Part shown: piece by piece, positions 4,268 through 53,795 of the stretch
How the letters are laid out: every line of letters begins with the position of its first letter
Numbering within the stretch: position 1 is the stretch's first letter
Source of the DNA: Collinsella aerofaciens
GTDB lineage: Bacteria; Actinomycetota; Coriobacteriia; Coriobacteriales; Coriobacteriaceae
Direction: 5' to 3'
DNA: 64,000 nucleotides
Assembly: GCF_020181355.1 (NCBI RefSeq)
Contig: NZ_CP084004.1
Location: 124,001-188,000 of the forward strand
The notes under the pieces: model-generated
The model's input: only the letters and a program-made list of their open reading frames with translations
The model's database searches: none
What the model was told of the DNA's origin: nothing
Made by a program: the position numbers and the translations under genes

Positions 4268-4825
4268 CTATTTCTTGAACGGGAAACCGAAGGCGTCCAG
4301 AAGGGCCTTGGCCTCCTCATCGGTATTGGCGGTGGTCACGAAAGTGATGTCCATACCGCGCTGGTGATCGACGGAGTCGAAGTCGATTTCGGGGAAGATG
4401 AGCTGCTCGGTGACGCCCATGGAGAAGTTACCACGGCCGTCGAAGCTCTTGGCGGAGATGCCGCGGAAGTCGCGGATACGGGGGATCGCGACGGAGGTCA
4501 GACGATCGAAGAACTCCCACATACGGTCGCCACGCAGGGTAACCTTGCAGCCGATCGGCATACCAGCGCGCAGGCGGAAGGTAGCGATGGACTTGCGGGC
4601 ACGGGTGATCATCGGCTGCTGGCCGGTGATGGCGCGCAGGTCGCGCACGGCACCGTCGATGGCCTTGGAATCGGTAGCGGCCTCGCCGACACCCATGTTC
4701 ACGACGATCTTCTCAAACTTGGGGATCATCATGACGTTCTCGTACTGGAACTTGTCCTGAAGCTGCTGCTTGACCTCGTTGTTGTACTTGGTCTTCAGAC
4801 GCGGCACATACTTCTCTTCTGCCAT
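4268..4825 (-). CDS. rplE: 50S ribosomal protein L5
   Basis: 5S rRNA-binding protein of the central protuberance. The 185-residue product has family-typical features ([36 protein letters not shown]) and normal length. In almost all bacteria it directly follows rplX; here it is the first gene of its transcription unit, and the partner half of the operon lies about 48.7 kb away (rplX stop at 53490). A candidate promoter lies about 140 nt upstream of its start. Confidence 0.98.
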
Positions 4826-4962
4826 TGTTCACTCCTTCTTGGGGTTTTAAGCACGGGGCGTGGCCACGATGGGTTGTCCTCGTGCCTCCTGACTGCATCC
4901 GCGCCGCTCATGGCATTTCGCGGTTTGGACTCGACGCAGCAGGAGCCGACAAAACAATCGGT

Positions 4963-4991
4963 ACTATACGCGCATCGTGAGCGTATTTCCA
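4963..4991 (-). promoter_or_regulatory. Candidate sigma-70 promoter for the separated spc half
   Basis: On the minus strand a TATAGT -10 box (4963-4968) is preceded, after exactly 17 nt, by TGGAAA (4986-4991), matching 4 of 6 positions of a consensus -35. Transcription from here would start near 4956 and read about 130 nt of leader into rplE. Its placement just upstream of the gene that lost its usual operon neighbours makes it functionally plausible. Not experimentally known. Confidence 0.55.
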
Positions 4992-5052
4992 GAAAAACCT
5001 CGTCTGCCTGCACAACTCCACAACTCCCCCGCACAAATGGGTCCCAACAAGC

Positions 5053-5119
5053 AGTTGCGGTGAAATAGGGACTGTTGGGCGGCCTAACAGGCTTAAACAA
5101 TCCGTATTTCACCGCAACT
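5053..5119. repeat. Long hairpin between xdhC and the rplE promoter
   Basis: A perfect 15-nt inverted repeat (AGTTGCGGTGAAATA at 5053-5067, complement at 5105-5119) extends inward with one further near-complementary block (GGACTGTT against AACAATCC). The whole structure lies between the xdhC stop (5137) and the rplE promoter. It could insulate the two units or be a dispersed palindromic repeat. The remaining part of the 311-nt gap 4826-5136 holds only the promoter. Confidence 0.6.
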
Positions 5120-5136
5120 TATTGGTGGGGATGCGA

Positions 5137-6180
5137 TTAGCGCTTGCGGGGGACGAGCTTGGTGCGGCGCAGGTGGATCATCTCGGCGGCGATGGAGATG
5201 GCGATCTCCTCGGGGTCCTCGGCCTCGATGGCAACGCCGATCGGAAGGTGCAGCTCGCCGATCTGGTCCTGCGTAAAGCCTTCCTGCTCCAGGCGGGCAC
5301 GCACAAAGGCCGTCTTGCGGCGCGAGCCCAGACAGCCCAGGTAGGCAGGCTTGGCGCGCATGGCCTGAATCACCACGTCGATATCGGACTTGTGACCCGC
5401 CGTGGCGACGACCACCAGGTCGCGCGGGCCGATGGGGCACAGCTCGCTCAGGTTCTTGTAATCGACCAGGCGACGATCGTAGACACCGGGCACCCATTCG
5501 GGCGTCAACGTGCCGGGGCGGTCATCGCAGGCCACGACGGCAAAGCCCGCCGCCGTGAGCACGCGCGCCGTCGCGGCGCCCACGTGCCCGCAGCCAAAGA
5601 TGTAGGTCAGGCCCTCGGGGCAGAGCGTCTCGATGTGCGCCGCGGGAATCTCAGAGGCAGCGTTGGTGTAGGTGACGTTACTCCCCTCCTCCACCAGTGA
5701 AAGCCCGGGGCAGCCCGCAATGGTATGGCGCGATGCCTCGCCATGGTACTCGGCCACATCGCCCTCGAGCGCGCTCGCGATAAACGGTTCAAAGTCGATG
5801 ACGAAGTCGCCGATGCGCCGATAGACCAAGACGTCGGCAATTTCCTGGAACAACGGTGCCTGGGTCGCATCCAGATGCAGATAGCACAGGCAGATGGCTC
5901 CGCCGCAGATCATGCCGGTATCGGAGTTCTCGCCGCCCATGGTGTAGCGGACCAGACGCGACTGTCCCGCGCTCAGGAGTTCGCGCGCCTCATCCAGCGC
6001 AAAGAGCTCAATCTTGCCGCCGCCGATAGTGCCCGCCTGGCTGCCGTCGGCAAAGACGGCCATCCAGGCGCCCACGCCGCGCGGCGACGACCCCGCCGTG
6101 CCGGCCACGACCACGAGCTCGCACGTCTCGCCAGCACGCAGGGCGGCAAGCGCCGCATTCACAACATCGAGCTTTTCCAT
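5137..6180 (-). CDS. xdhC: XdhC/CoxI-family molybdenum hydroxylase maturation protein
   Basis: Family members bind molybdenum cofactor, help sulfurate it and insert it into xanthine dehydrogenase-type enzymes. The 347-residue protein has an N-terminal XdhC/CoxI domain (AGSSPRGVGAWMAV, GTIGGGKIE) and a C-terminal Rossmann domain with YIFGCGHVGAATARVL and YLGCLGSRRK. It lies 9 nt downstream of yqeB and probably shares its transcript. The context (yqeB, yqeC, mocA) points to the selenium-dependent hydroxylase system, with XdhD at 26.7-29.4 kb as the likely client. Confidence 0.92.
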   Translation of the reverse strand: MEKLDVVNAALAALRAGETCELVVVAGTAGSSPRGVGAWMAVFADGSQAGTIGGGKIELFALDEARELLSAGQSRLVRYTMGGENSDTGMICGGAICLCYLHLDATQAPLFQEIADVLVYRRIGDFVIDFEPFIASALEGDVAEYHGEASRHTIAGCPGLSLVEEGSNVTYTNAASEIPAAHIETLCPEGLTYIFGCGHVGAATARVLTAAGFAVVACDDRPGTLTPEWVPGVYDRRLVDYKNLSELCPIGPRDLVVVATAGHKSDIDVVIQAMRAKPAYLGCLGSRRKTAFVRARLEQEGFTQDQIGELHLPIGVAIEAEDPEEIAISIAAEMIHLRRTKLVPRKR

Positions 6181-6189
6181 TGCCGCCTT

Positions 6190-6984
6190 CTATCCTCTAA
6201 AGACATCGGTGAGCATGGCGAGTGCCTCGAGCACGCCGCCGCCGACCGACGTCGCCTTGTCCGAAATGTAGTTGATATAGCTGGCATCGCCGCGCGGATC
6301 GACATCGGCGCATTTAAAGCCCTCAGTCACCTGCACGCCGTTCGCCAAAAGTCCGCGCAGACAGCCATCGATCTGCGTGCACATGGGCGTATCGCCCGCG
6401 TAGCCAATCACGTTTCCGGCACTCACGATGTCGCCGATTGCGCGGTCGGACCGAAACACGCCGGCGGCGGGGCTGTGAATAACGCGCTCTTTGCCATAGC
6501 CGGCGATAATGCCTGGCACGCCCGTGTTGGGCTGGGGCGAACCCTGGGTGATGACGCGGCCCAGAAAATGCCCGCGCATGGTCTCGACCACGGCGTCGCA
6601 ATCGACCGGCGCGGTAAAGCCCGGCCCCACGGCGATGACGACAGGAGCCATATCGCGCGTGGTGCCCAAGTTGCGCTTAGCCAGAATCGCGTCGACCACG
6701 GCAGCGGGTTTCAGCTCGCCGAGCATCTTGGCCTGGGGGTCCACCACAACGGCGACGTCTCCCGCTTGGGTAATCTCGAGCGCCTCTGCCGGCGTCTGCG
6801 CCAAGCGGGCGCGAATGCCCTCGACCTGGACCTCGCCCAGGCGAATGGCCTCGCAAAAACTGATTGTGCGGCGGATGCACGTGGGAACCGCGATATCGGC
6901 CATAACGACCGACACGCCAGCGCGCACCAAGCGAGCGGCGACGCCCGTGGCGATATCGCCGGCACCGCGAATATAAACGAGCAT
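6190..6984 (-). CDS. yqeB: Selenium-dependent molybdenum hydroxylase system protein YqeB
   Basis: A 264-residue member of the YqeB family, a marker of genomes that use selenium as a labile cofactor in molybdenum hydroxylases; biochemical role unknown. The N-terminus MLVYIRGAGDIATGVA is a nucleotide-binding-like glycine motif, and ITQGSPQPNTGVPG is conserved in the family. It heads a two-gene unit with xdhC and is divergent from yqeC across about 100 nt of AT-rich DNA (6985-7086) that must hold both promoters. Confidence 0.9.
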   Translation of the reverse strand: MLVYIRGAGDIATGVAARLVRAGVSVVMADIAVPTCIRRTISFCEAIRLGEVQVEGIRARLAQTPAEALEITQAGDVAVVVDPQAKMLGELKPAAVVDAILAKRNLGTTRDMAPVVIAVGPGFTAPVDCDAVVETMRGHFLGRVITQGSPQPNTGVPGIIAGYGKERVIHSPAAGVFRSDRAIGDIVSAGNVIGYAGDTPMCTQIDGCLRGLLANGVQVTEGFKCADVDPRGDASYINYISDKATSVGGGVLEALAMLTDVFRG

Positions 6985-7086
6985 TCCCGGGGCACCTCCC
7001 TGTGCTACGGTTTGAGCAGAGCAAAAGCGGTTCGACCTCTACTCTGATGATTATTTATTATCACAGTATTATACGGCGGTGAACAG

Positions 7087-7824
7087 ATGGAAACGACGAG
7101 CGGAAACCTTGCCTCCACGCTCAAGATCGAGCCGGGCATTACCGCAATTATCGGCAGTGGCGGCAAGTCGACCCTACTAAAGACGCTCGGCCTTGAGCTT
7201 ATGCGCGCCGGCGGCCGCGTGCTCCTCTGTACCACCACGCACATGTTTCCCGTCGCCGGCGTGCCATGGGACGGGTCGAGCCGTCGCCTGGGCGCCGCGC
7301 CTTGGAAGCCGGGAGCTCTGCATGTTCCTGGCTGCACTTGCGAGGCATGCGCTGGCATGAGCCGCGGAAGTATCTGCCAGGCGGGTGTTTTGGACCCGGA
7401 GACAGGCAAGCTCTCCGCCCCCGCCGAGCCGCTCAACGAGCTGGCGCAGCGCTTTGACTACGTGTTGGCCGAGGCAGATGGCAGCAAGCGACTCCCGCTC
7501 AAGGCGCATGCCGCCTGGGAGCCGGTAATTCCCGACGCCACGGCAAACGTTGTCTGGGTCGTCGGCGCTTCGGGGCTGGGCAAGCCCGTCGCCGAGGCTG
7601 CCCACCGCCCCGAGCTCTTCTGCGAGCGCTGCGGCTGCGAGCCCACCGACGCTGCCACCCCAGAGCGCGTCGCCATGGTGCTCAATGCCGAGCTGCGAAT
7701 GCTGAACCTCAACAATGCCCGCATCATGCTCAACCAAGTCGACACGCTTGCCGACCCAACGATGGCAGATTGCTTCGAGGCAGCCCTCGGCAGCCCCATC
7801 GTCGCCACCAGCCTCAAGGGGTAG
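7087..7824 (+). CDS. yqeC: Putative selenium-dependent hydroxylase accessory protein YqeC
   Basis: The 245-residue protein has an N-terminal P-loop (ITAIIGSGGKSTLLKTL) and a following LCTTTHMFP segment, as in YqeC proteins that co-occur with YqeB and selD. A role in making or inserting the selenium-containing cofactor is proposed from co-occurrence, not shown. It is the only plus-strand gene of this block, divergent from yqeB. Its TAG stop is embedded in the left arm of the long palindrome at 7819-7923. Confidence 0.88.
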   Translation: METTSGNLASTLKIEPGITAIIGSGGKSTLLKTLGLELMRAGGRVLLCTTTHMFPVAGVPWDGSSRRLGAAPWKPGALHVPGCTCEACAGMSRGSICQAGVLDPETGKLSAPAEPLNELAQRFDYVLAEADGSKRLPLKAHAAWEPVIPDATANVVWVVGASGLGKPVAEAAHRPELFCERCGCEPTDAATPERVAMVLNAELRMLNLNNARIMLNQVDTLADPTMADCFEAALGSPIVATSLKG

Positions 7825-7923
7825 CTAATTTGGGACGGGGCTCTTTTAGCTACCCCATGTTGAGAGAAAAATCATCAGGCAGGCAAGGGTAGCTAAAAGA
7901 GCCCCGTCCCAAATTAGCTACCC
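7819..7923. repeat. Nested long inverted repeat between yqeC and hydantoinase
   Basis: Two 37-nt arms (7819-7855 and 7887-7923) are perfect reverse complements around a 31-nt spacer. Each arm itself begins GGGTAGCTAA and ends TTAGCTACCC, so the decamer occurs four times in alternating orientation. The left arm supplies the yqeC stop codon. It lies between convergent genes and could act as a bidirectional terminator, but its perfection and nested design resemble a dispersed palindromic repeat or MITE-like element. Confidence 0.85.
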
Positions 7924-7937
7924 TGGCGGCCTTCCTG

Positions 7938-9305
7938 CTAGCGGGGGACGTAGCGGCCGGGTTGGGCTCCGGTGGGCTCGCCGTCGCGTGCCACCAGCAC
8001 GCCGTTCACAAACACGACCTTGGCGCGGCCATGTGCCCCAAAACCCTCGAGCGGCGTGTAGTCCACAGCTTGATGCTGTGTCGCGGCACTGATTGTCCAG
8101 CGCGCTTTGGGATCCCACACGCACACATCGGCATCGGCGCCCTCGGCAAGACAGCCCTTGCGCGGGTACATGCCAAACACGCGCGCCGGGTTCTCGCTCA
8201 TCAAGCGGCACAGATCCTCGGGGCCCAGCTGGCCCTCAAAGCTCGTGGCAATCGCGACGGGACGATGTTCCACGCCGGGCCCGCCGTTGGGAATCGCGCG
8301 GAAATCGTCGCGCCCGCGGTCCTTTTGCCCGTGCAGGTTAAAGCTGCAATGATCGGTCGCAATCGTATCGATCTCGCCGGCCACAAGCGCCTCGCGTAGC
8401 GCGGCACGGTCACCGGCATGGCGCAGCGGCGGGCTCATCACATACTTGGCACCCGCAAAGCCGTCCTCGCCCTGCTCCAAGTAGCAAGTATCGTCGAGCA
8501 TCAGATACTGAGGGCAGGTCTCGACATAGATGTTCTTCTGCCCGCGCGCTTTGGCGGCGCGGATGGCCTCGAGCCCCAGCTTGGTCGAAAGGTGCACCAC
8601 GTTGACCGGTGCGTCGCCGGCCAGGTGCGCCAGATACAGCAGACGGCTCACCGCCTCGGCCTCGCACACGTCCGGACGGCTGAGCGCATGGCCCTCGGGT
8701 CCATGAATCCCTCGCTCGTACACGCGCTTCTGCAGTTCATTCACCAGCGTGCCGTTCTCGCAATGCACGCACAGTATGCCGCCAATATGTTTGAGCTCCT
8801 CGAGCACCTCGAGTGTCTCGGCATCGTCCAAGCGCAGGTGGTCATAGGCAAAGTAGGTCTTAAACGACGACACGCCCGCCTCGCGCATGGCCGAAAGATC
8901 GGCGCGGTTGCGCTCGTTCCACTCGGCGAGTGCCATATGAAAGGCGTAGTTGGCCGTGCAGGTTCCGCCGGCGCGGCGATGCCACTCGGCCAAGGCATCG
9001 GGCATGGTCACGCCGCGATCGGCCGTCGCGTAGTCCACGATGGTCGTCGTGCCGCCGCAGGCAGCTGCGCGCGTGCCGGTCTCAAAGCTATCGGCTGTCC
9101 AATCCATGCCGGTCCAGCACTGCATGTGCGTGTGGCCGTCGATAAAGCCGGGAAACACCCAGCAGCCCGCGGCGTCCTCGACGGTATCGCCCTCGGCCGG
9201 CTCAATCGCCGCGGCGATCCGCACGATCTTATCGCCATCCATGGCAAGATCGGCGCGGCGAAGCCCCTGGGGCGTCACGAGCGCGCCGTTTTTGATGATG
9301 ATCAT
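7938..9305 (-). CDS. hyuA: Dihydropyrimidinase / D-hydantoinase family cyclic amidohydrolase
   Basis: Zinc-dependent hydrolase of cyclic ureides such as hydantoins and dihydropyrimidines. The 455 residues show the HTHMQ metal motif (about residue 58), the lysine to be carbamylated (SSFKTYFAY), a metal-binding HCENG, HLS and the TDHCSF aspartate. In the homologous Escherichia coli cluster hyuA accompanies ygeW, ygeX and ygeY. Here it follows mocA after 9 nt, so the two form one unit; its expected role is ring opening of a purine-derived ureide, an inference from context. Confidence 0.9.
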   Translation of the reverse strand: MIIIKNGALVTPQGLRRADLAMDGDKIVRIAAAIEPAEGDTVEDAAGCWVFPGFIDGHTHMQCWTGMDWTADSFETGTRAAACGGTTTIVDYATADRGVTMPDALAEWHRRAGGTCTANYAFHMALAEWNERNRADLSAMREAGVSSFKTYFAYDHLRLDDAETLEVLEELKHIGGILCVHCENGTLVNELQKRVYERGIHGPEGHALSRPDVCEAEAVSRLLYLAHLAGDAPVNVVHLSTKLGLEAIRAAKARGQKNIYVETCPQYLMLDDTCYLEQGEDGFAGAKYVMSPPLRHAGDRAALREALVAGEIDTIATDHCSFNLHGQKDRGRDDFRAIPNGGPGVEHRPVAIATSFEGQLGPEDLCRLMSENPARVFGMYPRKGCLAEGADADVCVWDPKARWTISAATQHQAVDYTPLEGFGAHGRAKVVFVNGVLVARDGEPTGAQPGRYVPR

Positions 9306-9314
9306 AATTGCTCC

Positions 9315-9929
9315 TTATTGATTGATGCTGTTGGCCACGCGATCAAAATACGAGCAGGCGGCGATATGCTCCGTTATGCGTCGCTGTCCCTTGGCGGTAT
9401 CGACGTCCCACAGCTCGTAGGCACGCGCCTCGACCAGCACCACGTCAATACGGTCCTTGAGGATCGAACCGCCGCCGTCCTTGCCCTCAAGACGCATGAG
9501 CGCATCGAACAGTTCCGCCGGAAAGAGCACCGGGCTCGAAGGCTCACCGTTGCACGCAAGACGCACCGGATGCTTGCGGCCACGTTCGTCAAATGCACGA
9601 ACCATAGCCTCAAAAGAATCCGAACTCACGAGCGGCTGGTCGCCCGGCAAAAAGAGGCAACCTTTCCAGTTGCGTTCGACTCCCCACGAAAGGCCCGCAC
9701 GGACGCTTTCGCTGCGCAGCTCGCCATCGTGCAGCACGCACGGGCAATGCTTGTCCTCGCAAATCTGAGCGACCTCGGGCCAACGCGTCGAAACCACGAC
9801 GTCAAAGCCCCGGGGAACCGAATCGATGGTCCGGGCAATCAGCGGCTCGCCATAGATATCGGCAAGCATCTTGTTAGAGCCAAACCGCTTGCCCTCGCCC
9901 GAAGCCATAATGACGCATCCAAGTTTCAT
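9315..9929 (-). CDS. mocA: MocA-like molybdenum cofactor nucleotidyltransferase
   Basis: Nucleotidyltransferase of the MobA/MocA type, expected to convert molybdopterin cofactor to the cytosine dinucleotide form used by xanthine dehydrogenase-like enzymes. The protein of 204 residues has the N-terminal nucleotide-binding loop (CVIMASGEGKRFGSNK) and LFLPGDQPLVSSDSF. I chose the ATG at 9929 because AGGGGAGG lies a few bases upstream, although the frame is open further. It is upstream of and close to the hydantoinase gene. Confidence 0.88.
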   Translation of the reverse strand: MKLGCVIMASGEGKRFGSNKMLADIYGEPLIARTIDSVPRGFDVVVSTRWPEVAQICEDKHCPCVLHDGELRSESVRAGLSWGVERNWKGCLFLPGDQPLVSSDSFEAMVRAFDERGRKHPVRLACNGEPSSPVLFPAELFDALMRLEGKDGGGSILKDRIDVVLVEARAYELWDVDTAKGQRRITEHIAACSYFDRVANSINQ

Positions 9930-10016
9930 GGTGATACCTCCCCTGAAACCATCGTACCCATAACTCGCGCCGCGGGCATCTACATCGAAAGCGCTTATCC
10001 CGCACGCCCGCGATGC

Positions 10017-10055
10017 AAAAAGGGGCACCCCGCCGGTTGGCAGAGCGCCCCCTTT
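10017..10055 (-). terminator. Intrinsic terminator downstream of ygeW
   Basis: On the minus strand AAAGGGGGCGC and GTGCCCCTTT form a GC-rich stem followed by a T-run (TTTTT). It lies 24 nt after the ygeW stop and should end the dpaL-ygeY-ygeW transcript before mocA. Confidence 0.75.
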
Positions 10056-10078
10056 ACATGGCTTACCTCAACCCGGCT

Positions 10079-11281
10079 TTAGGCCTGGAACCAACGGGCG
10101 GTGTTGCGCTCGTCGAGGGCCTTGAGGGTAGCGGCGGGATCGGCAACCTTCTGCAGGAACATCATGGCTGCGATGGCGTACGGCTTGTAGCTGGCCTCCT
10201 TGTACATGCCCACGCGGTGCATGTCGAAGACGTCGGCGTTGACCTCGCCGTGCTCGCAGGAGACACCGGAGATGTCGGCGGGCAGCGGGTGCATAAAGAT
10301 GGTGTCCTGGCCGTTGGCAGTCTTCTCCATGAGCTCGGTCGTGGAGCACCAATCCTGATGGGTGGCGTTCTGAGCGAGCAGCTCCTTCTCGAGCGCAGCG
10401 ATGCCGGCGTCGTCGCCCTCGGCGTACAGGTTGGTACGCTTCTCCATGGCGGCAAACGGAGCCCAGCTCTTGGGGATCACAATGTCGGCGCCTTCGAAGG
10501 CCTCGGCCATGGTGTTGACCTGCTTAAAGGTGGTGCCGGACTCGGCGGCATAGCCCTTGGCGCGCTCGACGACCTCGGGCATGAGGTCGTAGCCCTCGGG
10601 GTGAGCCAGGGTGACGTCCATGCCAAAACGGGGCAGCAGGCTGATCAGCGACTGCGGGCAGGACAGCGGCTTGCCGTAAGAGGGCGAATAGGCCCAGGTG
10701 ACGGCAACCTTCTTGCCCTTGAGGTTCTCAAGGCCGCCAAACTCGTTGATGAGGTAGAGCATGTCGGCAGAAGACTGCGTGGGGTGGTCGGAGTCGGACT
10801 GCAGGGAGATGAGCGTGGGACGGTGATCCAGAACGCCGTCCTCGTAGGCCTGCTGTACGGACTCGGAGACCTCGGCCATGTAGGCGTCGCCCTTGCCGAT
10901 GTACATGTCGTCGCGGATGCCGATGACGTCGGCCATGAAGGAGATCATGGTAGCGGTCTCGCGGACGGTCTCGCCGTGAGCGATCTGGGACTTCTTCTCG
11001 TCCAGGTCCTGCAGCTCAAGGCCGAGCAGGTTGGCGGCCTTAGAGAAGGAGAAGCGCGTACGGGTGGAGTTGTCGCGGAACAGCGAGACGGCAAGACCGG
11101 AGTCGAAGATCTTGGACGAAACGTTGTTCTCACGCAGCTCGCGCAGGGCGTCGGCGACGATGTAGAGCGCCTTAAGCTCATCGGTGGTCTTGTCCCAGGT
11201 GTGCAGGAAGTCGCTGCCGTACATACCCTTAAAATCGAGGCCGTTCAGCTGCTCGACGAGCTCGGTAAACTTAGCGTCCAT
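10079..11281 (-). CDS. ygeW: YgeW, carbamoyltransferase-family protein
   Basis: Member of the aspartate/ornithine carbamoyltransferase superfamily, YgeW branch, whose natural substrate is not settled. The 400-residue product carries the carbamoyl-phosphate loop FRDNSTRTRFSF, the HPTQSSADM motif and HPLPADISG. Start chosen at 11281, with AAAGGA upstream; the longer open frame has no comparable start. It follows ygeY and is thought to act on a carbamoylated purine-breakdown intermediate. No carbamate kinase gene, its usual partner, is present in the window. Confidence 0.92.
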   Translation of the reverse strand: MDAKFTELVEQLNGLDFKGMYGSDFLHTWDKTTDELKALYIVADALRELRENNVSSKIFDSGLAVSLFRDNSTRTRFSFSKAANLLGLELQDLDEKKSQIAHGETVRETATMISFMADVIGIRDDMYIGKGDAYMAEVSESVQQAYEDGVLDHRPTLISLQSDSDHPTQSSADMLYLINEFGGLENLKGKKVAVTWAYSPSYGKPLSCPQSLISLLPRFGMDVTLAHPEGYDLMPEVVERAKGYAAESGTTFKQVNTMAEAFEGADIVIPKSWAPFAAMEKRTNLYAEGDDAGIAALEKELLAQNATHQDWCSTTELMEKTANGQDTIFMHPLPADISGVSCEHGEVNADVFDMHRVGMYKEASYKPYAIAAMMFLQKVADPAATLKALDERNTARWFQA

Positions 11282-11482
11282 GGAAATGTCCTTTCTAAAG
11301 ATGAAACGATCGCAATGAGTAGATGTGCTCCGCCATGCGCGTGTGGCTAGAACATGCAGAGCACCATGACGAGGACCCGCCACCGTTGAGGAAGCATGGG
11401 AGATAACGACCGCGGGCCCCAAGTCAACAGGGGGTGCCGGGGACACGAGCGGCCCCCGGCTCAACAAAATCGAGGAATGGGA

Positions 11483-12868: not shown

Positions 12869-12942
12869 TGTTCATAACCTTTCAAACGAAGGAATCTACC
12901 TGTGAGGTGGCGGAGCGATACCTATTTACTCCGCCCCAACGA

Positions 12943-14315: not shown

Positions 14316-14434
14316 GCCGTAATCGGTACCTTATCGCCGACGAACGGTTACATAACGCAGCAACGCTTTCGTTATTTGCGAACAGGTGTGGTTTATGGCA
14401 AAGTATGCCCAAACTAATTTTTAGGAAGGCACCC

Positions 14435-15088: not shown

Positions 15089-15211
15089 GCACTCGCTTGG
15101 ATTGCCCCTCCCCTTTTGGGCGCGAGTTCTGGAAAGCACGAATCCAAGACCGAGCCGCTTGGGAAGTTCCATATAATCGATGTCATTAGTATTTCGAAAG
15201 GATGGAACAGA

Positions 15212-16201: not shown

Positions 16202-16338
16202 CGAGAGCTGAAGGCGGCCGCTGGATCCCGCATCCAGCACCGGCTTCTAAGTGCTGTTTTGTCATCCAGCTACACTTTTCCGAAGTTTTAAGGTGCCTAT
16301 TTCGACACTTTTCCGGATTTTATACTCTGTCCCTCCAG

Positions 16339-16632: not shown

Positions 16633-16654
16633 GCGAGAGATCTCAGCAGTGTTA

Positions 16655-18996: not shown

Positions 18997-19011
18997 GTTG
19001 AGAGATCTCCA

Positions 19012-20831: not shown

Positions 20832-20837
20832 TTGATC

Positions 20838-20933: not shown

Positions 20934-20939
20934 GAAAGC

Positions 20940-43274: not shown

Positions 43275-43324
43275 ATGTGCCTCCTGTGTCATAGAACGTC
43301 TTGCATTTCGGATAGCTCTATATT

Positions 43325-43358
43325 CGCACAAACACGCGCGTCTGTGCGCGTTTTTGCG
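43325..43358. promoter_or_regulatory. Imperfect dyad upstream of the oxidoreductase
   Basis: CGCACAAACACGCGC and GCGCGTTTTTGCG are imperfect inverted repeats, followed to about 43450 by several ACGCA/TGCGT half-site-like motifs. Position upstream of the deoR-controlled unit makes it a candidate operator. Rest of 43275-43700 has no gene. Confidence 0.35.
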
Positions 43359-45142: not shown

Positions 45143-45221
45143 GTGATCCTCCTTACAAAGGGACGCCCGCAGTCATGGTCAACCGCGGGCGCCCATAACG
45201 TTGGCTTGTTTCGAGGCGACC

Positions 45222-46346: not shown

Positions 46347-46358
46347 CGTCGACCTCCT

Positions 46359-46757
46359 CTATTCGTCGTCGTCGCACTCGGCGGAACTGGCACCGTTCAC
46401 GTAGATGATCTGCTGGCGCGCCTCGTTGACGAGGGCGTCGAAGTCGAGTTTCTCGTCGGGGCGCGCGAGCGCGACCGTCATGGCGAGCGGGAGGTTGACA
46501 CCCGCGATCACGTGGATCCGGTCGGAGGCGAAGCGGGAAAAGCGCTGGTTCACGCTGCCGCCGTACGCGTCGGTGAGGACGACGACCTCGTCAGTGCCCG
46601 AAAGAGCCGCCTCGACCGCCGCGTCGAGCCCCTCGCCGTTGTCGTTCACGTAGGCGCACACGGCGTTGACGGCGTCGCCCTTACCCGTAAGGAACTCGAG
46701 GGTGTCCTTGAAGCCCTGGGCGAGAAGGGAATGGCTCGCCACAACTATCTTTCTCAT
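46359..46757 (-). CDS. PTS EIIA component, mannose family
   Basis: Phosphoryl carrier of 132 residues. The phosphorylated histidine is His9 in VVASHSLLAQGF; LTDAYGGSVNQRF and GVNLPLAM are family features. It is encoded 13 nt before the GH172 gene and after EIID, making the full A-B-C-D complement separate polypeptides. Confidence 0.9.
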   Translation of the reverse strand: MRKIVVASHSLLAQGFKDTLEFLTGKGDAVNAVCAYVNDNGEGLDAAVEAALSGTDEVVVLTDAYGGSVNQRFSRFASDRIHVIAGVNLPLAMTVALARPDEKLDFDALVNEARQQIIYVNGASSAECDDDE

Positions 46758-46783
46758 TGATTCACCAATCTCTTGGGTCGAAG

Positions 46784-47617
46784 CTAGGCGAGGATGCCGG
46801 CGGCGGAGGCGACCATCGCGAGGACGATCACCACGAGGATGAGGGCCGTCATGCTCGCGTTCTTCTTGGTAAGAAGGTAATACGCGCTTCCCGTGATGGC
46901 GGCGGGGATCATGGCAGGCAGGATCTTGTCGAGCAGCGGCTGAATCTCCATCGCGACGTCGCCGAAGCTGAAGCTAATCGGGCAGGTGACGCCGATGACC
47001 GAGGCGATGAGGCAGCCGACCACGGTGAGGCCGAGCACGGAGGCGGCGGCAGTGAGGTTGGGAAGCTTCTCGCTGAAGTCGGTGACGAGCTTCACGCCCT
47101 GCTTGTAGCCGAACTCGAGGGCGTGCATGCGGACCCAGAAGATGGCCAGGATGAGCGCGAACCAGATGCCGGCTCCCACGGGGTTGCCCTCGATGGCCAT
47201 GTAGGCGGCGATGGAGCCCATGATGGTCGGGATCATGGTCATGAGCAGGGAGTCGCCGACGCCGGCGAGCGGTCCCATGGTGCCGATCTTCAGGTCTTGG
47301 ACGGCGTCCGCCGCCGCTAGGCCGTCGCGCTCCTCCATGGCCACGCAGGCGCCAAGGATGATGGCGGCGAGCCAAGGCTGGGTGTTGTAGTAGCGGAAGT
47401 GGTTGTTGAGCGCTTGCTTATAGTCCTCGTCGTTCGTGTAGATCTTCCTCAGGACCGGCGAGAGGGCGTAGGCGACTGAGGCGCCCTGCTGGGTCTGGTA
47501 GTTGAAGGTGCACACGCTCATGAGCCAGCGCCAGTTCGCGTTGCGCAGGTCCTTCTTGGTGACCTTGTAGCCGGAGGGCTTGCCCTCGGCGACGGCGGTG
47601 ATGTTCTCGTTTTCCAT
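46784..47617 (-). CDS. PTS EIID component, mannose family
   Basis: Membrane component of 277 residues, with the EIID start (KVTKKDLRNANWRWLMSVC; NYQTQQGASVAYAL) and C-terminal hydrophobic helices. It pairs with EIIC in the translocation unit. Two nt separate it from EIIC. Confidence 0.92.
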   Translation of the reverse strand: MENENITAVAEGKPSGYKVTKKDLRNANWRWLMSVCTFNYQTQQGASVAYALSPVLRKIYTNDEDYKQALNNHFRYYNTQPWLAAIILGACVAMEERDGLAAADAVQDLKIGTMGPLAGVGDSLLMTMIPTIMGSIAAYMAIEGNPVGAGIWFALILAIFWVRMHALEFGYKQGVKLVTDFSEKLPNLTAAASVLGLTVVGCLIASVIGVTCPISFSFGDVAMEIQPLLDKILPAMIPAAITGSAYYLLTKKNASMTALILVVIVLAMVASAAGILA

Positions 47618-47619
47618 GG

Positions 47620-48405
47620 TTACTCATCCTCTCCGATGAAGGCGTCTGCGGAAGCGTGGGCGGCGAGCTCGGTGTCCCTCTCGGCACGCTGGTAGAACGC
47701 AATCGCGAGGGCAACGCCGACGATGGCGGCGCCGATGATGGGCACGTTCAGGAAGGCCGAGAGGAAGAAGCCGGCGAGCAGGTACTGGAAGTACTTGGCG
47801 GTTGGCATGTAGCGGAGCAGCATGGCGATACCGACGGCCGGGAGCATCTTGCCGGCGAGGGTGAGGCCGGAGAGGAACCACTGGGGCATGACCTCGAGGA
47901 GCCAGTTGACGGCGGGCTGGCCGAGCGTCACGGAGACAAAGACGGGCAGGGCGGCGCACAGGCCGAAGAGCGCGGGGCAGACCCACAGGATGGCGTTCAT
48001 CTGATTGAACTTACCCTCGTTGCAGAACTTCTGGGACTTCTCGACGACAAAGCCGTTGAGGATCTTGGCGACGACGTCGAGCTGGATGCCGAGCATGCCG
48101 ACCGGCAGGCCGATGGCGAGGCCCGTGTCGGAGCCCAGGGTCACGCCGTAGGCGGTGGCGATGATGACCATCGTGCCGTAGTCGGGAATGGAGGAGCCGC
48201 CGAAGCCCGCGACGCCGAGCTGCATGAGCTGAATGGTGCCGCCGATGACAAGGCCGGTCTTCCAGTCGCCCATGACGACTCCGGTGATGAGGCCCCAGAA
48301 AACGGCGTAATTGACGAAGATCATCGGGATGCCGTAGTAGTCCACGTGCTTGATGAAGGCCAGCAGGGTCAAAAGGACGACCTGCAGGATAGTGAAGTTG
48401 ACCAT
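47620..48405 (-). CDS. PTS EIIC component, mannose family
   Basis: Integral membrane component of 261 residues forming the sugar channel. Features include GVVMGDWKTGLVIGGTIQLM and the glycine-rich GVAGFGGSSIPDYGT stretch, followed by hydrophobic helices. Follows EIIB by 9 nt. Substrate not deducible from sequence alone. Confidence 0.92.
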   Translation of the reverse strand: MVNFTILQVVLLTLLAFIKHVDYYGIPMIFVNYAVFWGLITGVVMGDWKTGLVIGGTIQLMQLGVAGFGGSSIPDYGTMVIIATAYGVTLGSDTGLAIGLPVGMLGIQLDVVAKILNGFVVEKSQKFCNEGKFNQMNAILWVCPALFGLCAALPVFVSVTLGQPAVNWLLEVMPQWFLSGLTLAGKMLPAVGIAMLLRYMPTAKYFQYLLAGFFLSAFLNVPIIGAAIVGVALAIAFYQRAERDTELAAHASADAFIGEDE

Positions 48406-48414
48406 ATTTCCCCC

Positions 48415-48888
48415 TTAGATGAGGTCTGCGACGGAGACGGGCTTGTCGGCGGGCACGAACTGGGCCGTCACCTTGACGCCACGGGCGATGAGCGCCTTGT
48501 AGCTCTGGACGTTCTCGGCGGAGGCGTAGGCGCGCTGGGTGAGCTGGATGCCGTCCTCCTTGACGAGCGAGCCGCCGACGACCAGCGACGGGAGCTCGAC
48601 GCCCGACTCGACCAGGCGAAGCATCGTCTCGGGCTCCTTGGCGATGACGAAGACCTTCTCGCGGTCGTACTTGCCCGCGGCGAAGTTCTTGAGCGCGGTC
48701 TGCTCGGAGATGATCGAAACGGCCATGCCCGCGGGGCGCGCCATCCTCATGGTGGACTTCAGGACCTCGTCGCCGGCGACCTTGTCGTCGATGACCATGA
48801 CTCGGGTCGCGCCCGACACCGGGGCCCACTGCGTCACGATGATGCCGTGAAGCAGGCGATTGTCGATTCGTGCCATAACAACACTCAT
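48415..48888 (-). CDS. PTS EIIB component, mannose family
   Basis: The 157-residue carrier has the phosphohistidine in ARIDNRLLHGIIVTQW and ends with a KVTAQFVPADKPV segment. Start at 48888 chosen on AGGAG and because the N-terminus then matches the family; the frame is open further upstream. It is the first PTS gene after levR, with a 123-nt gap that may hold the operon promoter. Confidence 0.9.
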   Translation of the reverse strand: MSVVMARIDNRLLHGIIVTQWAPVSGATRVMVIDDKVAGDEVLKSTMRMARPAGMAVSIISEQTALKNFAAGKYDREKVFVIAKEPETMLRLVESGVELPSLVVGGSLVKEDGIQLTQRAYASAENVQSYKALIARGVKVTAQFVPADKPVSVADLI

Positions 48889-49011
48889 GTTTGCTCCTAT
48901 CAAATGAAGTTTTGCGTTCGGTACTGCCTCGGCGCTATCCGGATTCGCGCCGGGCAAGGGGTTATCGGATTATTGAGGACGCGCGGTCAGCTTGCGGCGG
49001 CGTGGGGAAGG

Positions 49012-51753
49012 TCACTCGTCGAGCAGGAGGTCCGAGGAGCCGAGGCGCTCTTCTCGCGCCGGGGCGGCGCTCACGCTTATGTAGTCGAAGACATATGCGA
49101 TCTCGCTTACGGGAACCTCTACGCGATAGCGCGTCGAGATGCTCGAGAAGCTCTGCCTGAAGGACTCGATGAAATCGGCGCGTTCCTCCTCGAAGCGGTC
49201 CTGGCCAACGTAGGTCTCAATGGGGTTTCTGGTAACAAGGCGCTCGACGAGACAGCAGAGGTGAACGTAGAGCCCAATGATGGCGTTGCTGCCGATCTTC
49301 TCGCCTGTCCTGCGCTGAAGCTCGTGCACGGCGCTCTCGATCTCATGGAATAGCCGCTCCGGGTCGAGGATGGTGATGGAGCGGATGACGTTCTGCAGCG
49401 TCATGTTCGAGAGCAGCTTCTCGTGGAAAGAAGAGAGCTCGGAAGCGTCAAGCCACCTGCCGAACACGGCATCAACCTTAGAGGCGGACGCCGTCGACAT
49501 GATGTCCTCGAGGGCGACGAAGGGGACGGAGGCGACCCCGGGGTCTCCCGTGCCGATGACGGCGCAGACGCGGTGCTCGGAGAAAACGGCGTCGTTCGAC
49601 CCGTTCGCGACGAGCTGCTTGAAGGGCCTCGTGAGCAGGCGCGCGCCTATGGTGCGCGGGAGGCTCTGCGAGACGAGCTGGCGTATCCTCTCCGCGGCGT
49701 CGACCCCGGACTCGGAGCAGAAGACGATGGCGTCCTCACGGTTGACGCGCTCGATCACCTTGCAGTGCGTCACGCACGCGGCGGTCGCATCGCCAAGAAC
49801 CTCGGCGATGGACTTGCCGCCGAGCAGCCCGACCCCGATCTCGAGCGCAAGACCGGTAGAGACGTTGTTCACCACGCCGATAGTGGAGTCGGTAACGTTC
49901 TCGAGGGCCTTATAGGCCTCCTCCAAGGAGCCCATGTCGACGAGGAACACGACCCCGGTGCAGTAGGAATGGCGGTCGACGAGGCGCTGGAGCGGACCGA
50001 CGATGTCCTTCAGCTGCTGGTCGTAGGGCATGTCGACAGCCTCGTACACATGCATGCCGAGCATACGGTTCGCCGCGTCGGCGATGCTCGTCGCCGTTGA
50101 GTAGCCGTGGGACAAGATGACGCAGAGCGTCCGAAGGGCCTTCGCATCGCGAGACTCCGATGCGACGCACAGCGTCAGAAGCGTCTTCGTGAAGTGATCG
50201 AGCGAGATTCCCAGCGCCCCTTCCACGTCTGCGGCGACCTGATCGGAGACACTCGAGGCAAACGGCAATTCGGAGGTCACGGCACCGAGGAGATGGGAGA
50301 TTTGCTCCGCACAGGCAGACTTTCGCTTAGCCAGGCCGATACCCGGCCACAACTGCAGGCAAATCTCCTGGGCCAGTAGAAAAGCGACCTTCCTCGAAAG
50401 CTCGATGCCATAAGAAGAGCCTGCGTCGGCAAGGACCGCGCCCACGACGCGCTCGAAGGCGCGCGACCTCGAGGAGGCGACGCCGTGGTCGAAGATCAAG
50501 TGATCCTCAACGCCGCGCACAGCGGAGACAGCTTGCGAGACAAGCTCGGAGACAGAGAGCTCCCCGGCGCAGAATCGCTCATCGAGGGAGCACAGGGCAT
50601 CGAGCGCCTGCTCGACCGGCCCTGTGCTCTCGGCGGCATCCAGAGACGCGTCGATCAGAACGCCATCGTCGGGCTGTTGATCGATCTGCGCGGAGGAGAG
50701 GAGCCCGCTGGGAAGAAGATACGGGCGAACGACGACGTAGTCGCCCTCGCGATTGAGGAACGCTTTGGCACAGCAGTTCGTCACGCAGGCGCGCAAGCCG
50801 GCGATGTTATCGGAAAAGTCCGCGTTCACGAGGCAACGGTATGCGCCGCGGCTGATCTTCACATCAGAACCGATTCGGCACCCCTCGCTGCGCAGGAAGC
50901 TCAAGATGAGATCCTCGCGCTCCTCGGGGGTCCGCTCCTTGAGTGAGGGGACGCGGGCACAGATGGGCATTTTGCTGTAGGCCGAGGAAACCTTCAGGTC
51001 ATCGGCGGAAAGCGTCGTCGAAAGAACGAGGCGAGCGCGCGGCGCATCCTGGGAGGCATCGAGCCCGAGGGCCGTCGCAAGGCAGTGCTCCATCGCAGAG
51101 GGAGAGAGTGCCTCGATGCCGTTGACAAAGACCACACCCCCGCGCGCTTTCGCGATCGACTCGTCAAGAAGCCCGTTGAACGAGGCGGCGTCCGGGACCC
51201 CGGCGCAGTCGATGCGCACATAGGAGGAGTCGCGGGACAGCAAGCCCTGGTTCTTGCCGTACTCGTACACAAGGCGAGAAAGGAAAGACTTACCGACACC
51301 CACGCCGCCGCTCAAGAGGATGGGCAGGCCAAACGGAGGGTACTGAACCGCAGCCTTGCACTGCTCGACAACGGAGCTGAGGCTCATGTCGAAGCCCACG
51401 GCACGCGCGAAGTCGCGGTGATCGGCGATTCCCGTCGCCTGGATGAGGTCGGCGAGCGAGGCATACTCGCTTGCAGAGAGCTTTACCTGAAAACGCTTCT
51501 GGAACGCGCGGCGATGAAAATAACGGACAGGCCTGCCCGCCACCTTAACCACAAGACCGGCGCGAACAAGGTCGTTGAGGTACTGGCTCGCCAGGCTCCT
51601 GGGGATGATGAGCGTCTCGGCGATGTCGGAGGTGGACAGACGGGCAAGGTCGTCGAGCGAGACGGCAGAGGTGAGGGCCTCGAGATGCTCGAGAATCCTG
51701 TCCCTCATGTCGACGGGTTTCTTTGCCAAGCTGTCCTGTGTGGTCTTGTCCAT
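49012..51753 (-). CDS. LevR-like PTS-controlled regulator lacking sigma-54 contact motif
   Basis: A 913-residue regulator with LevR architecture: N-terminal winged helix (about 15-85), AAA+ domain (Walker A SGGVGVGKS at 148-156), PRD1 (about 375-480), EIIA-like domain with His549 in SHGYSTATS, an EIIB-like part with Cys at 679-680 (VFCSESGVDAAERIR), and PRD2 with LYVHLCCLVERL (about 828-839). However, no GAFTGA loop is present and the Walker B site reads GGVVFVNGIEAL instead of a DE pair. It likely controls the downstream PTS operon without sigma-54. Confidence 0.88.
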   Translation of the reverse strand: MDKTTQDSLAKKPVDMRDRILEHLEALTSAVSLDDLARLSTSDIAETLIIPRSLASQYLNDLVRAGLVVKVAGRPVRYFHRRAFQKRFQVKLSASEYASLADLIQATGIADHRDFARAVGFDMSLSSVVEQCKAAVQYPPFGLPILLSGGVGVGKSFLSRLVYEYGKNQGLLSRDSSYVRIDCAGVPDAASFNGLLDESIAKARGGVVFVNGIEALSPSAMEHCLATALGLDASQDAPRARLVLSTTLSADDLKVSSAYSKMPICARVPSLKERTPEEREDLILSFLRSEGCRIGSDVKISRGAYRCLVNADFSDNIAGLRACVTNCCAKAFLNREGDYVVVRPYLLPSGLLSSAQIDQQPDDGVLIDASLDAAESTGPVEQALDALCSLDERFCAGELSVSELVSQAVSAVRGVEDHLIFDHGVASSRSRAFERVVGAVLADAGSSYGIELSRKVAFLLAQEICLQLWPGIGLAKRKSACAEQISHLLGAVTSELPFASSVSDQVAADVEGALGISLDHFTKTLLTLCVASESRDAKALRTLCVILSHGYSTATSIADAANRMLGMHVYEAVDMPYDQQLKDIVGPLQRLVDRHSYCTGVVFLVDMGSLEEAYKALENVTDSTIGVVNNVSTGLALEIGVGLLGGKSIAEVLGDATAACVTHCKVIERVNREDAIVFCSESGVDAAERIRQLVSQSLPRTIGARLLTRPFKQLVANGSNDAVFSEHRVCAVIGTGDPGVASVPFVALEDIMSTASASKVDAVFGRWLDASELSSFHEKLLSNMTLQNVIRSITILDPERLFHEIESAVHELQRRTGEKIGSNAIIGLYVHLCCLVERLVTRNPIETYVGQDRFEEERADFIESFRQSFSSISTRYRVEVPVSEIAYVFDYISVSAAPAREERLGSSDLLLDE

Positions 51754-51946
51754 GACTTCTTACCTCCTCGTACAAGGAGTATAAGGGGAGAACAGAGAAC
51801 GGAAGGGGGCGCGTGGGGGAATCAACAGCTCCGAGGAAAAGTCCACCACTTGAGGGGCAGAAAACAACGGCCATTGAACATTCAGGGCCGACGCTCAACA
51901 CTTCGGCTCGACACTTCGCTTTGGAAAGGGCCCCGGCGCGCCGGGC

Positions 51947-52310
51947 CTAAAGCTTAACCATGCGCGCGGCGATGCGGGCGCAGTCGCAGGCGGCCTTCTT
52001 CTCGAAGGTGTTGTAGTCGACGACCCGGCCCTCGGCGCAGGGCTTGTCGCTGATGGCGCGCACGACGACGAGGGGCACGCCGTTGAGATAGGAGGCCTGC
52101 GCGATGGTGCAGCCCTCCATCTCGCAGCACAGGTCGCCGAAGGCCGCGAGGATTCGCTCCTTCTGTTCCGCGGGCGAGACGAACTGGTCGCCGGAGACGA
52201 CGCGGCCCTTGAGGACCTTAATGTCGGGGGCGACGGCGGCCGCGGCGGCGCACGCCGCCAGCAAGGGCCGGAACGGATCGCGCAAGATCAAGGCGTCGCC
52301 CGGGAGGTCG
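51947..52310 (-). pseudogene. mtnN: 3' part of an MTA/SAH nucleosidase gene
   Basis: The C-terminal half of 5'-methylthioadenosine/S-adenosylhomocysteine nucleosidase is recognisable: VVSGDQFVSPAEQKERI, CCEMEG (glutamate) and VVVRAISDKPC (catalytic aspartate). The N-terminal half is replaced by an IS3-type transposase remnant on the opposite strand, so the gene is broken. Its end is followed by a GC-rich palindrome at 51933-51951. The 193 nt to levR hold only its promoter region. Confidence 0.8.
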
Positions 52311-52316
52311 GGCGTT

Positions 52317-52722
52317 ACCGTCAGCCGGTGCCGCGTCTGCCGCATCATGAGGGAGAACGGCCTGGCCGGCGCATACGGCAGGAAGAGGTTCAAGGTGCAC
52401 CCCGGGGCGGTCAACGAGGCCGACGTGTCGAACGTCGTCGCGCGCGGCTTCGGCGGCAGGGCGCCGTGCACCCATATATGCAGCGACTTGGCCTGCGTGC
52501 GCGTCGGGGCGTCGTGGAACTACGTCTGCCTGCTCGTCGACCTCTGCAACGGGGAGATCGTCGGCCACTCCGAAGGACCGAGGAGGGACGCGCGAGCTCC
52601 GAGCCAAGCTCTTGGATTACGTGCACTGGTACAACAACTTCAGGATCCACTCGACGCTGGGCTACATGTCGCCGGTCGAGTTCAGGGAGGCGGGGCCGTC
52701 CCTCCCGGAATCGTCCAAATAA
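52317..52722 (+). pseudogene. IS3-family OrfB transposase remnant
   Basis: The frame encodes parts of an IS150/IS3-type integrase: CRVCRIMRENGLAGAYGRKR, ICSDLACVRVGASWNYVCL with a catalytic aspartate, and, after an internal deletion and frame change near 52590, LLDYVHWYNNFRIHSTLGY with MSPVEFREAG. The segment with the second aspartate is lost. It truncates mtnN and marks the right border of the sugar locus. Confidence 0.8.
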
Positions 52723-53431
52723 GTGTTGCCAATCCATAGCCAATCCAGCCATCATCTTCGCGAAGGCGGACGTCAGGAAAAGCTCGGCTTGAGCTCGGTC
52801 GGACGCGGTCTGTGGGGCATCATTCAGGCTCAGGGGGTCTCCTTGTCTTCTTCGGTCGCAACCTGAATGATAGGGACGGCCCCTTCTCTCTTTCCCCTTC
52901 GTTTTCGACGCGTCACCCTCTCGGCGGGCTTAAGGCCCGCGCTCGCGGGTGCAGGGGCTACGCCCAAACCCCAAAAACGTAACGCCGTGCTCGAAGCGTT
53001 TCCGGACGTCAGCGTAATCTCAAATCCCGTTCGTCAACTCATGGGCAAGCCACCTGAGACTACTCATTTCTCCTACTGGCAATGAAGACCTGCGACCTGC
53101 AGTTTTGCAAACTGCTTGAAAGCCACCTGCGTTGATTCACTTCCTATTGCAGCTGGCGGCTTGCACGCGAAAAGGCATTTAAGTTTCAAAACGGGCGTTT
53201 TCGGCGCTATCGAGCCTCCAAAGGCATCCCGCCGCGCCCTTTGGGACAAAAACAAAAACTCAAAGCCCTGAGTTCGAAAATAGTTTTTGGAGTTGTCCCG
53301 ACTTTTGTCCCCGAAGCCGACGAAACGCGACAGGGTATCACCTGGCGGCACTCGATTCGAGACGGCACCGAAAACTGGATGCAACCGGAATGACGGGACG
53401 GCAGAACCGAAGCCATCGAGTGGGGATAGAA
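52723..53431. other. Intergenic region without supported genes
   Basis: About 700 nt between the IS3 remnant and the S10-half terminator. It contains a perfect 10-nt inverted repeat (ATCATTCAGG 52819-52828, CCTGAATGAT 52862-52871). A minus-strand open frame at 53073-53471 reads through the terminator and looks spurious. I see no other gene. This is the breakpoint region of the split ribosomal operon on the rplX side. Confidence 0.6.
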
Positions 53432-53463
53432 AAAGGCCCGGGTGCCGTGGCATCCGGGCCTTT
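53432..53463 (-). terminator. Strong intrinsic terminator after rplX
   Basis: AAAGGCCCGG-TGCC pairs with GGCA-CCGGGCCTTT; on the minus strand it is followed by a TTTTT run. It lies 27 nt beyond the rplX stop, so the S10 half ends here instead of continuing into rplE. Confidence 0.9.
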
Positions 53464-53489
53464 GCTAGCAACTTGATGTTGCGGGCAGC

Positions 53490-53795
53490 TTAGAACTTGT
53501 GGCCGCACTTCTTGCAGACGCGCAGCTTGTTCTTGCCGTCCTTCTCGTGACCGACGCGGGTAACCTTACCGCACTCGGGGCAAACGAGATTGACGTTGGA
53601 GGCGTCGATGGGAGCCTCCTGCGAAACGATGCCGCCCTGCTGGTTGGCAGCGTTGGGCTTAACGGCCTTCTTGACGACCGAAACGCCCTCGACAACGACC
53701 TTGTTCTCGGCAGGGAGAGCACGCAGGACAACGCCCTGCTTGCCGCGATCCTTACCAGAGAGAACCTGGACCTTATCGCCCTTCTTGATATACAT
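53490..53795 (-). CDS. rplX: 50S ribosomal protein L24
   Basis: Assembly initiator of the large subunit. The 101 residues start [20 protein letters not shown] (KOW motif) and end with a CxxC pair ([19 protein letters not shown]). It follows rplN by 13 nt. It is here the last gene of its operon, which is unusual because rplE normally follows within a few bases. Confidence 0.98.

Follow-up and report, generated by a model that had tools for sequence, protein, structure and literature searches.

How does a bacterium come to carry the ribosomal gene pair rplX-rplE, which is regarded as nearly universal, in two pieces with a large block of other genes between them? The question is raised by a 64,000-nucleotide stretch of the Collinsella aerofaciens genome (NZ_CP084004.1, positions 124,001 to 188,000; hereafter the window), in which rplX, the final gene of the upstream half of the S10-spc ribosomal protein cluster, and rplE, the opening gene of its downstream half, lie on the same strand 48,664 bp apart. 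A preliminary description, made from the sequence alone, had reported this split, and it is confirmed: both genes are intact and each gives one match in the whole genome (2.28 Mb, 99.94% complete). The same description proposed that a block of genes had been inserted and that expression had then been repaired. We favour a different course, in which the junction between rplX and rplE is a regulatory seam of long standing and not a random break (a probability of roughly 0.7), and in which the break in transcription probably preceded the insertions, because an RNA leader lies upstream of rplE across the order Coriobacteriales and terminator-like hairpins follow rplX in the sister family even where the gap is short.

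The rplX-rplE spacer is wider across most Coriobacteriales

Comparison of the interval among relatives, as the preliminary description had suggested, gave no adjacency in the Coriobacteriaceae and graded gaps in the sister family. All 65 Coriobacteriaceae genomes returned (family f1, six genera) were surveyed with a joined L24 and L5 query, and 75 genomes of the sister family (f5) and 60 of the next family (f2) were sampled; the latter two are probably the Atopobiaceae and the Eggerthellaceae, respectively. Adjacency was seen in 0/65 Coriobacteriaceae genomes (64 decidable). The two genes are collinear on one contig in 34 of the 65, with gaps of 1.7-61 kb, comprising 19/43 in the Collinsella genus (4.6-61 kb) and 15/22 in the other five genera. 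About 32 kb follows rplX without rplE in G021, L24 was not found in G032 (72% complete), and in the sole undecided genome, G035, both genes run up to contig edges, and about 0.66 kb of the interval is visible. The two genes were collinear in 64 sister-family genomes, with gaps of 77 bp to 32.3 kb (less than 1 kb in 35, 1-5 kb in 16 and at least 5 kb in 13); in the other 11 they lay on different contigs. The 59 measurable genomes of the next family had gaps of 22-377 bp, with a median of 131 (G251, which gave one joined match, was omitted), and 48 of the 49 loci placed outside the order by title had gaps of 22 bp or less. The spacer is therefore wider across most Coriobacteriales than in the other bacteria compared. 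Among titled loci within the order, one Coriobacteriaceae locus (L027) had a gap of 505 bp and two Atopobium loci had gaps of 302 and 306 bp; no rplE was found in the downstream DNA searched at 27 loci titled Collinsella or Coriobacteriaceae (9,997 bp at 24 of them, less at three), nor within 9,997 bp downstream of rplX in Lancefieldella rimae.

Two isolated observations were made in this survey. The sole locus outside the order with a gap above 22 bp was L074 (Desulfobulbaceae; 360 bp), and one sister-family genome (G299:C1:597579-599070) has two adjoining L5 matches, one of which contains two TAG stops.

Within the loci fetched from the two split families, the widening is confined to this one junction. 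We measured the 20 junctions from rplC to secY in fetched regions, which covered 43 of the 64 other Coriobacteriaceae genomes and the window (20 genomes with near-identical rplE, and G035, were omitted), 45 of the 75 sister-family genomes and 15 of the 60 from the next family; 39-43 Coriobacteriaceae and 43-45 sister-family loci contributed per junction. In these two families all junctions but rplX-rplE were at most 300 bp. The rplX-rplE gap exceeded 500 bp in all 14 Coriobacteriaceae loci having both genes in one fetched stretch and in 20/45 sister-family loci. The latter were selected as collinear with gaps no longer than about 7 kb, and their fraction over 1 kb, here and in the tree analysis, is therefore not a fair sample. 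In a FastTree phylogeny of seven concatenated proteins (the 98 rows having all seven), the Coriobacteriaceae, the sister family and the next family each formed one clade (supports 100, 99 and 100); rooted on the last, the first two grouped together, and the gap state (under or over 1 kb) required at least six changes.

A separate irregularity was seen in the next family, where the 3.2 kb or so upstream of rplB gave no rplC-rplD-rplW in 14/15 loci (L204-L218) and the remaining locus has a 1.8-kb rplW-rplB gap; perhaps this is a second break, in the S10 part of the cluster.

The RNA leader of rplE and its transcription signals

Between the promoter and rplE lies a structured RNA leader with two helices, P1 and P2 (Table 1). 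In the Coriobacteriaceae this element is nearly invariant and its order is fixed: -10 box, GGCTCCTG.CGG, hairpin, CGGCAGGAGGCACGAGGACAACC, a variable part, CCCCGTGCTTAAAACCCC, ribosome binding site and start codon. A compact version, made up of the P1 hairpin, the P2 hairpin and a short closing stem, occurs in the other two families. An alignment of 34 leaders from those two families, with the Coriobacteriaceae held out (A1), contained 106 cells changed on both sides of a pair against 36.9 in shuffles and had a score of 0.470 against 0.236, in each case with 0/500 shuffles as high; slid versions scored at most 0.181, and the closing stem was the weakest helix (62.5% of cells). The Coriobacteriaceae alignment (A2) has little variation, and its 14 both-sides cells (4.1 in shuffles) and score of 0.093 (0.056 in shuffles) were both above all shuffles. 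A conserved, covarying structure thus stands directly upstream of a ribosomal gene, which is one mark of a ribosomal protein leader, and it is placed at the rplE start, as an S8 operator of the E. coli type requires.

The leader appears to be specific to the order. A covariance model (R1) built from f5 and f2 sequences only, without the Coriobacteriaceae, matches the window once (25.8 bits, E 4.4e-6). Over 845 kb, with a cut-off of E ≤ 0.1, it recovered 38/43 Coriobacteriaceae, 18/19 further sister-family and 6/6 further f2 loci, missing L101, L140, L147, L155, L156 and L173. Genome-wide, at E ≤ 0.01, it matched 106/128 genomes of the order, 102 of them once; of the 91 matches for which the place of rplE was known, 90 lay within 150 nt upstream of that gene, and the other (G076) shared 104 nt with the extended rplE match. 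A sample of 346 genomes from the phylum was divided by listing order into 42 members of the order and about 304 others (five from the same class); 30/42 members matched, and the others gave one partial match (G449, E 1e-3, covering positions 31-54 of the 72 in the model). The filters applied in both the order and the phylum searches were stricter and lose weak matches, as with the 12/42 members missed in the phylum sample. No match was found in the 49 loci outside the order. Rfam gave no match in the window at the gathering score, and a permissive Rfam search of 4700-5100 returned two long non-coding RNA matches only, below gathering score and on the opposite strand.

Two candidate functions of the leader were considered and set aside. 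Mimicry of ribosomal RNA (rRNA) was set aside as the exact 11- and 12-mers that Coriobacteriaceae leader consensus pieces share with 23S rRNA (E 0.02-0.08 in a 15-kb target; best 12 nt, E 0.02) sit at differing 23S positions, and the best values for f5 and f2 pieces against rRNA were E 0.57 and 0.15. With regard to 16S helix 21, a comparison of consensus pieces with the rRNA operon by blastn-short, which addresses sequence only, gave no convincing match. Attenuation was rejected because U-rich sequence follows helix P2 in f2 and not in the Coriobacteriaceae or sister-family leaders read.

The putative terminator after rplX and the candidate promoter before rplE were found where the preliminary description had put them, and both recur in relatives. 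In the 140 nt that follow rplX, a terminator-like hairpin is present in 35/44 Coriobacteriaceae and 31/45 sister-family loci, compared with 21/220 and 18/225 shuffle controls; controls after rplN, rpsC, rplB, rpsH and rplF gave 0-2 matches per family, and hairpins after rplE were found in 4/44 and 11/45 loci, respectively. In f2, 11/15 loci score as terminator-like, and in six of these the hairpin is helix P2 of the leader itself. Of the 26 sister-family loci whose gap is under 600 bp, 18 have such a hairpin, and in sister-family genomes with gaps of 226-505 bp, which leave no room for a cargo gene of ordinary length, terminator-like hairpins are often accompanied by -10-like hexamers. On the promoter side, a -10 hexamer stands 21-23 nt before GGCTCCTG in 43/43 Coriobacteriaceae loci (TATCAT in 32, TATAGT in 10, TAATAT in one), and a hexamer starting TGG stands 17 nt above it in at least 35 of the 43. 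With a terminator-like hairpin after rplX and, clearly in the Coriobacteriaceae, a fixed promoter position before the leader, the cluster in these two families looks like two transcription units, and the suggestion that each half resembles a working operon holds up at the level of sequence.

Genes held in the interval

Features of the window are listed in Table 1. As had been proposed, the intervening genes are metabolic and mobile, and there are defence genes too.

Table 1. Position, strand and basis of features in the window.
Feature	Position	Strand	Basis or content
rpsZ (S14), rpsH, rplF, rplR, rpsE, rpmD, rplO, secY; remaining downstream half	14-4188	-	secY run against families; the other names presumed from order and sequence
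rplE (L5), opening gene of downstream half	4268-4825	-	NF000585, 304 bits, over cut-off
rplE ribosome binding site, AGGAG	4832-4836	-	complementary to CTCCT of P1
Structured RNA leader of rplE	4837-4953	-	R1 model match 4833-4911
Helix P2	4851-4885	-	GCACGAGG 4885-4878 with CCCCGTGC 4858-4851; 100% of cells paired
Helix P1	4886-4945	-	CTCCTG 4945-4940 with CAGGAG 4891-4886; 97.5% of cells paired, 35 sequences
Candidate promoter of rplE half	4963-4991	-	sequence: -35 TGGAAA 4991-4986, 17 nt, -10 TATAGT 4968-4963
Uric-acid/purine cluster, part 1	5137-14157	as given	XdhC-related (-), yqeB (-), yqeC (+), hyuA (-), mocA-like (-), ygeW (-), ygeY (-), diaminopropionate ammonia-lyase (-)
Variable pocket	14405-26591	.	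AbiE pair, BnzB-like, IS110 transposase, DUF234 ATPase
Uric-acid/purine cluster, part 2	26671-36046	-	xdhD-like, 4Fe-4S protein, ygfK, ssnA, purine permease
U32 peptidase, conserved cargo	37844-40339	+	PF01136, 274 bits
Gfo/Idh/MocA-type oxidoreductase	42195-43331	-	common to 4.6-kb Collinsella gaps
Variable pocket near rplX	44258-52471	-	ROK kinase, DUF2961, mannose-family phosphotransferase system (PTS), DagR-like regulator, nucleosidase fragment
Putative intrinsic terminator after rplX	53432-53463	-	inverted repeat, arms 53432-53446/53449-53463
rplX (L24), final gene of upstream half	53490-53795	-	TIGR01079, 120 bits, over cut-off
rplC to rplN, remaining upstream half	53809-59269	-	names presumed from order and sequence

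The U32 peptidase gene is probably the founding cargo in the Coriobacteriaceae. It is present in 13/14 intervals under 7.5 kb, always on the opposite strand to the ribosomal genes, and in 10/10 longer closed intervals fully read (the window included), and so in 23/24 in total; the exception, G170, has a 1.7-1.8 kb gap holding another open reading frame (ORF). The 31-61 kb versions read contain it too, and a 4.6-kb Collinsella gap (L082) holds the U32 gene and an oxidoreductase gene. Block insertion, as first proposed, is therefore supported only as an old founding insertion with later accretion and not as a single recent block.

The uric-acid cluster genes xdhD, ygfK, ssnA, hyuA, ygeW, ygeY and ygeX are present in the window, the assignment of ygfK, ssnA and xdhD being based on Pfam domains and context; no carbamate kinase gene yqeA, as in E. 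coli, was seen among the subset of window ORFs scanned. Within the family, ssnA occurs in 33/65 genomes: inside a closed interval in 14, on the interval side of the rplX or rplE contig in 12, elsewhere in two (G071 and G208) and undecidably placed in five, which puts it at the seam in 26/28 decidable cases. In the five 31-36 kb versions read, the 14-26 kb pocket was mostly absent and the 44-52 kb pocket (kinase, PTS, DagR-like regulator) was not found. Sister-family intervals carry other genes, for example a 2-hydroxyacid dehydrogenase, a large Listeria-Bacteroides repeat protein, a sulfatase and an alcohol dehydrogenase, and U32 was absent from the fetched stretches of f5 and f2. Of 20 representative ORFs from the Coriobacteriaceae and the sister family, 11 had no Pfam match at 1e-4, some being perhaps on the wrong strand.

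As regards the marks of an integrative genomic island, there is no transfer RNA gene in the window, no integrase among the ORFs scanned (a subset of those in the window), and, each edge of the block being searched within itself, no direct repeats were seen in 4700-5400, against two weak families in 52400-53500. Before the rplE promoter (5043-5129) stands a palindrome with core GTTGCGGTGAAATA and arms of 34 nt, a repeat that also occurs in L001, L002, L014, L089, L092, L093, L095, L097 and L099, among them after rplX (L002, L014, L095) or between yqeC and hyuA (L093, L097), as a small mobile-looking element at the seam. Downstream of rplX, 51947-52740 contains a nucleosidase gene fragment and, by eye, remnants of an IS3-type transposase.

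Among the putative defence genes, a 444-amino-acid protein (18658-20346) matches PADLOC BnzB (E 4e-63), part of what we take to be the Bunzi system; it is preceded by a 112-amino-acid ORF without a match, and its neighbours are the AbiE pair at 16655-18012 and, at 23207-24598, a candidate defence ATPase (PDC-S27). At the other end of the ribosomal cluster, no rpsJ was seen immediately upstream of rplC (59270-60353), where a crude ORF search did not place it; the nearest same-strand gene in this region resembles phosphoglycerate mutase by eye, and a further leader may be present in the long 5' region of rplC.

Explanations for the split and comparison with known systems

Repression by S8 in E. 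coli takes place at the rplE start (PMC10931766, in the part of that review available, which calls the situation in other species unknown), and therefore the seam is where control already changes hands. The leader would then serve in autoregulation, as the site of action of a ribosomal protein from the rplE half, with S8 as first candidate because E. coli S8 acts at the same place. In the predicted fold of the window, blocking the 3' arm of P1 leads CUCCU to pair with the ribosome binding site (-44.0 vs -49.1 kcal/mol); P1, when formed, might leave that site free, and a bound ribosomal protein might shift the balance. The free predicted fold already pairs part of the ribosome binding site, and the direction of regulation is uncertain. 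Once the halves were uncoupled, an insertion between them would not cut essential genes off any more, and genes could persist at the seam; the RNA and the promoter would thus offer a reason why one point tolerates insertion. We infer that a U32 peptidase gene entered in the Coriobacteriaceae ancestor, that the uric-acid cluster arrived in Collinsella and one other genus, followed by insertion sequence, defence and sugar-uptake pockets, and that different genes entered independently in the sister family. As a whole, the view that an undescribed, Coriobacteriales-specific class of ribosomal protein leader governs the rplE half, and made the junction a long-lived docking place in at least two sister families independently, seems to us reasonably likely.

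Several observations weigh against this reading of the junction. No terminator was found in 9/44 Coriobacteriaceae and 14/45 sister-family loci, and some matches were weak. The -10 hexamers are ordinary when scored singly (8/44, 6/31 and 0/9 beat shuffles at p ≤ 0.1), so that the promoter evidence lies in the fixed -10 position and not in the hexamer score. In A1, the number of pairs changed on both sides (15 of 18, vs 12.0 shuffled; 14/500 as high) and of further pair types (34 vs 31.2; 63/500 as high) exceeded shuffles by little, and in A2 the further pair types did not (8 vs 8.4). R1 had no match in 22/128 genomes of the order, including five listed f6 genomes and 11 Coriobacteriaceae, and the 23S matches came from own-family leader pieces only, and from different places. 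Furthermore, the halves lie on different contigs in 27/65 Coriobacteriaceae genomes. Finally, the order of events is based on parsimony and a FastTree phylogeny, and the short-gap relatives in the sister family could have lost their cargo secondarily.

Of the other explanations, some concern only part of this picture. The leader might stabilise or process the rplE messenger RNA and not regulate it, as its almost invariant helices in the Coriobacteriaceae would allow; its position, equal to that of the E. coli S8 operator, and the possible pairing of CUCCU with the ribosome binding site make this a doubtful, if still serious, alternative. Equally, the cargo might be kept by selection for high dosage or expression at a ribosomal locus, beyond mere tolerance. 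The concentration of ssnA at the seam speaks for this, but the contents vary widely, lie on both strands and have their own regulators, and we consider such selection rather unlikely.

The remaining explanations would replace the regulatory seam as the origin of the split. An inversion or translocation may first have parted the halves, the present gap arising by rejoining and filling; rearranged halves do occur, being about 870 kb apart on opposite strands in G017 and G024 and in swapped order in G042. Yet 34/65 genomes retain order and strand and nearly all intervals fully read contain U32, as one founding insertion predicts, and this course is improbable. A recent 48.7-kb insertion in this lineage, with terminator and promoter evolved afterwards as repair, was the explanation first offered, and the signals flanking the block and the mobile and defence genes within it fit. 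It is contradicted by the lack of adjacency throughout the family, by the same leader and promoter in all Coriobacteriaceae loci read and by the hairpins at short sister-family gaps, and has very little left to recommend it; repair after insertion probably has the order wrong, given a leader found order-wide and terminator-like hairpins at gaps of 226-505 bp. Misassembly is an unlikely cause, and an artefact has next to no chance of explaining the split, since many independent assemblies agree, adjacency being excluded in 42/43 genomes of the genus, including the single-contig assemblies G002 and G037 (the contig of G035 breaks there), and nothing was found in its favour.

An old regulatory seam in this place has partial counterparts in the literature, as far as the available text of the sources goes. 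Rearrangements of str-S10-spc-alpha have been described in Gammaproteobacteria and Bacilli, with the suggestion that insertion relaxes selection on synteny (PMC8046335). The likeness lies in insertions between operons, followed by full disconnection in some lineages. The difference is that 75/115 rearrangements there separate operons and leave them intact, whereas the Coriobacteriales break lies within spc, always at the same point, throughout whole families and together with a conserved RNA leader; the word Actinobacteria is absent from the main text of that study. The Leptospira S10-spc-alpha cluster, from what is available of PMC2481283, offers no parallel to the break. The spc S8 operator of E. 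coli (PMC10931766, PMC4176348) is likewise a folded RNA at the rplE start that controls rplE and the following genes, but it resembles 16S helix 21, whereas the Coriobacteriales leader consists of two adjacent hairpins and a short closing stem. Other leaders, including the L31 leader of Coriobacteria (PMC7247131), are likewise covarying RNAs upstream of a ribosomal gene and mostly restricted to one lineage; rplE, uL5, uS8 and uL24 do not appear in the main text of that paper. The cargo shares xdhD, ygfK, ssnA, hyuA, ygeW, ygeY and ygeX-type genes with the anaerobic uric-acid cluster (PMC12507026, PMC12542679), for which C. aerofaciens is already listed as a carrier (PMC12542679); in the available parts of these two papers no placement within a ribosomal operon was encountered. 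No published report of the rplX/rplE break or of the leader was found in a search that mostly did not extend to subscription papers.

In summary, the Coriobacteriales appear to display the stepwise break-up of an operon family by family, from a wide spacer with a folded RNA, through a terminator and promoter, to the entry of foreign genes. This makes a general question testable, namely whether transcriptional uncoupling comes before physical splitting. The leader bears on a point left open in a 2024 review, that of how spc is regulated, and the genes for uric-acid degradation in gut Collinsella are now placed at a defined site.

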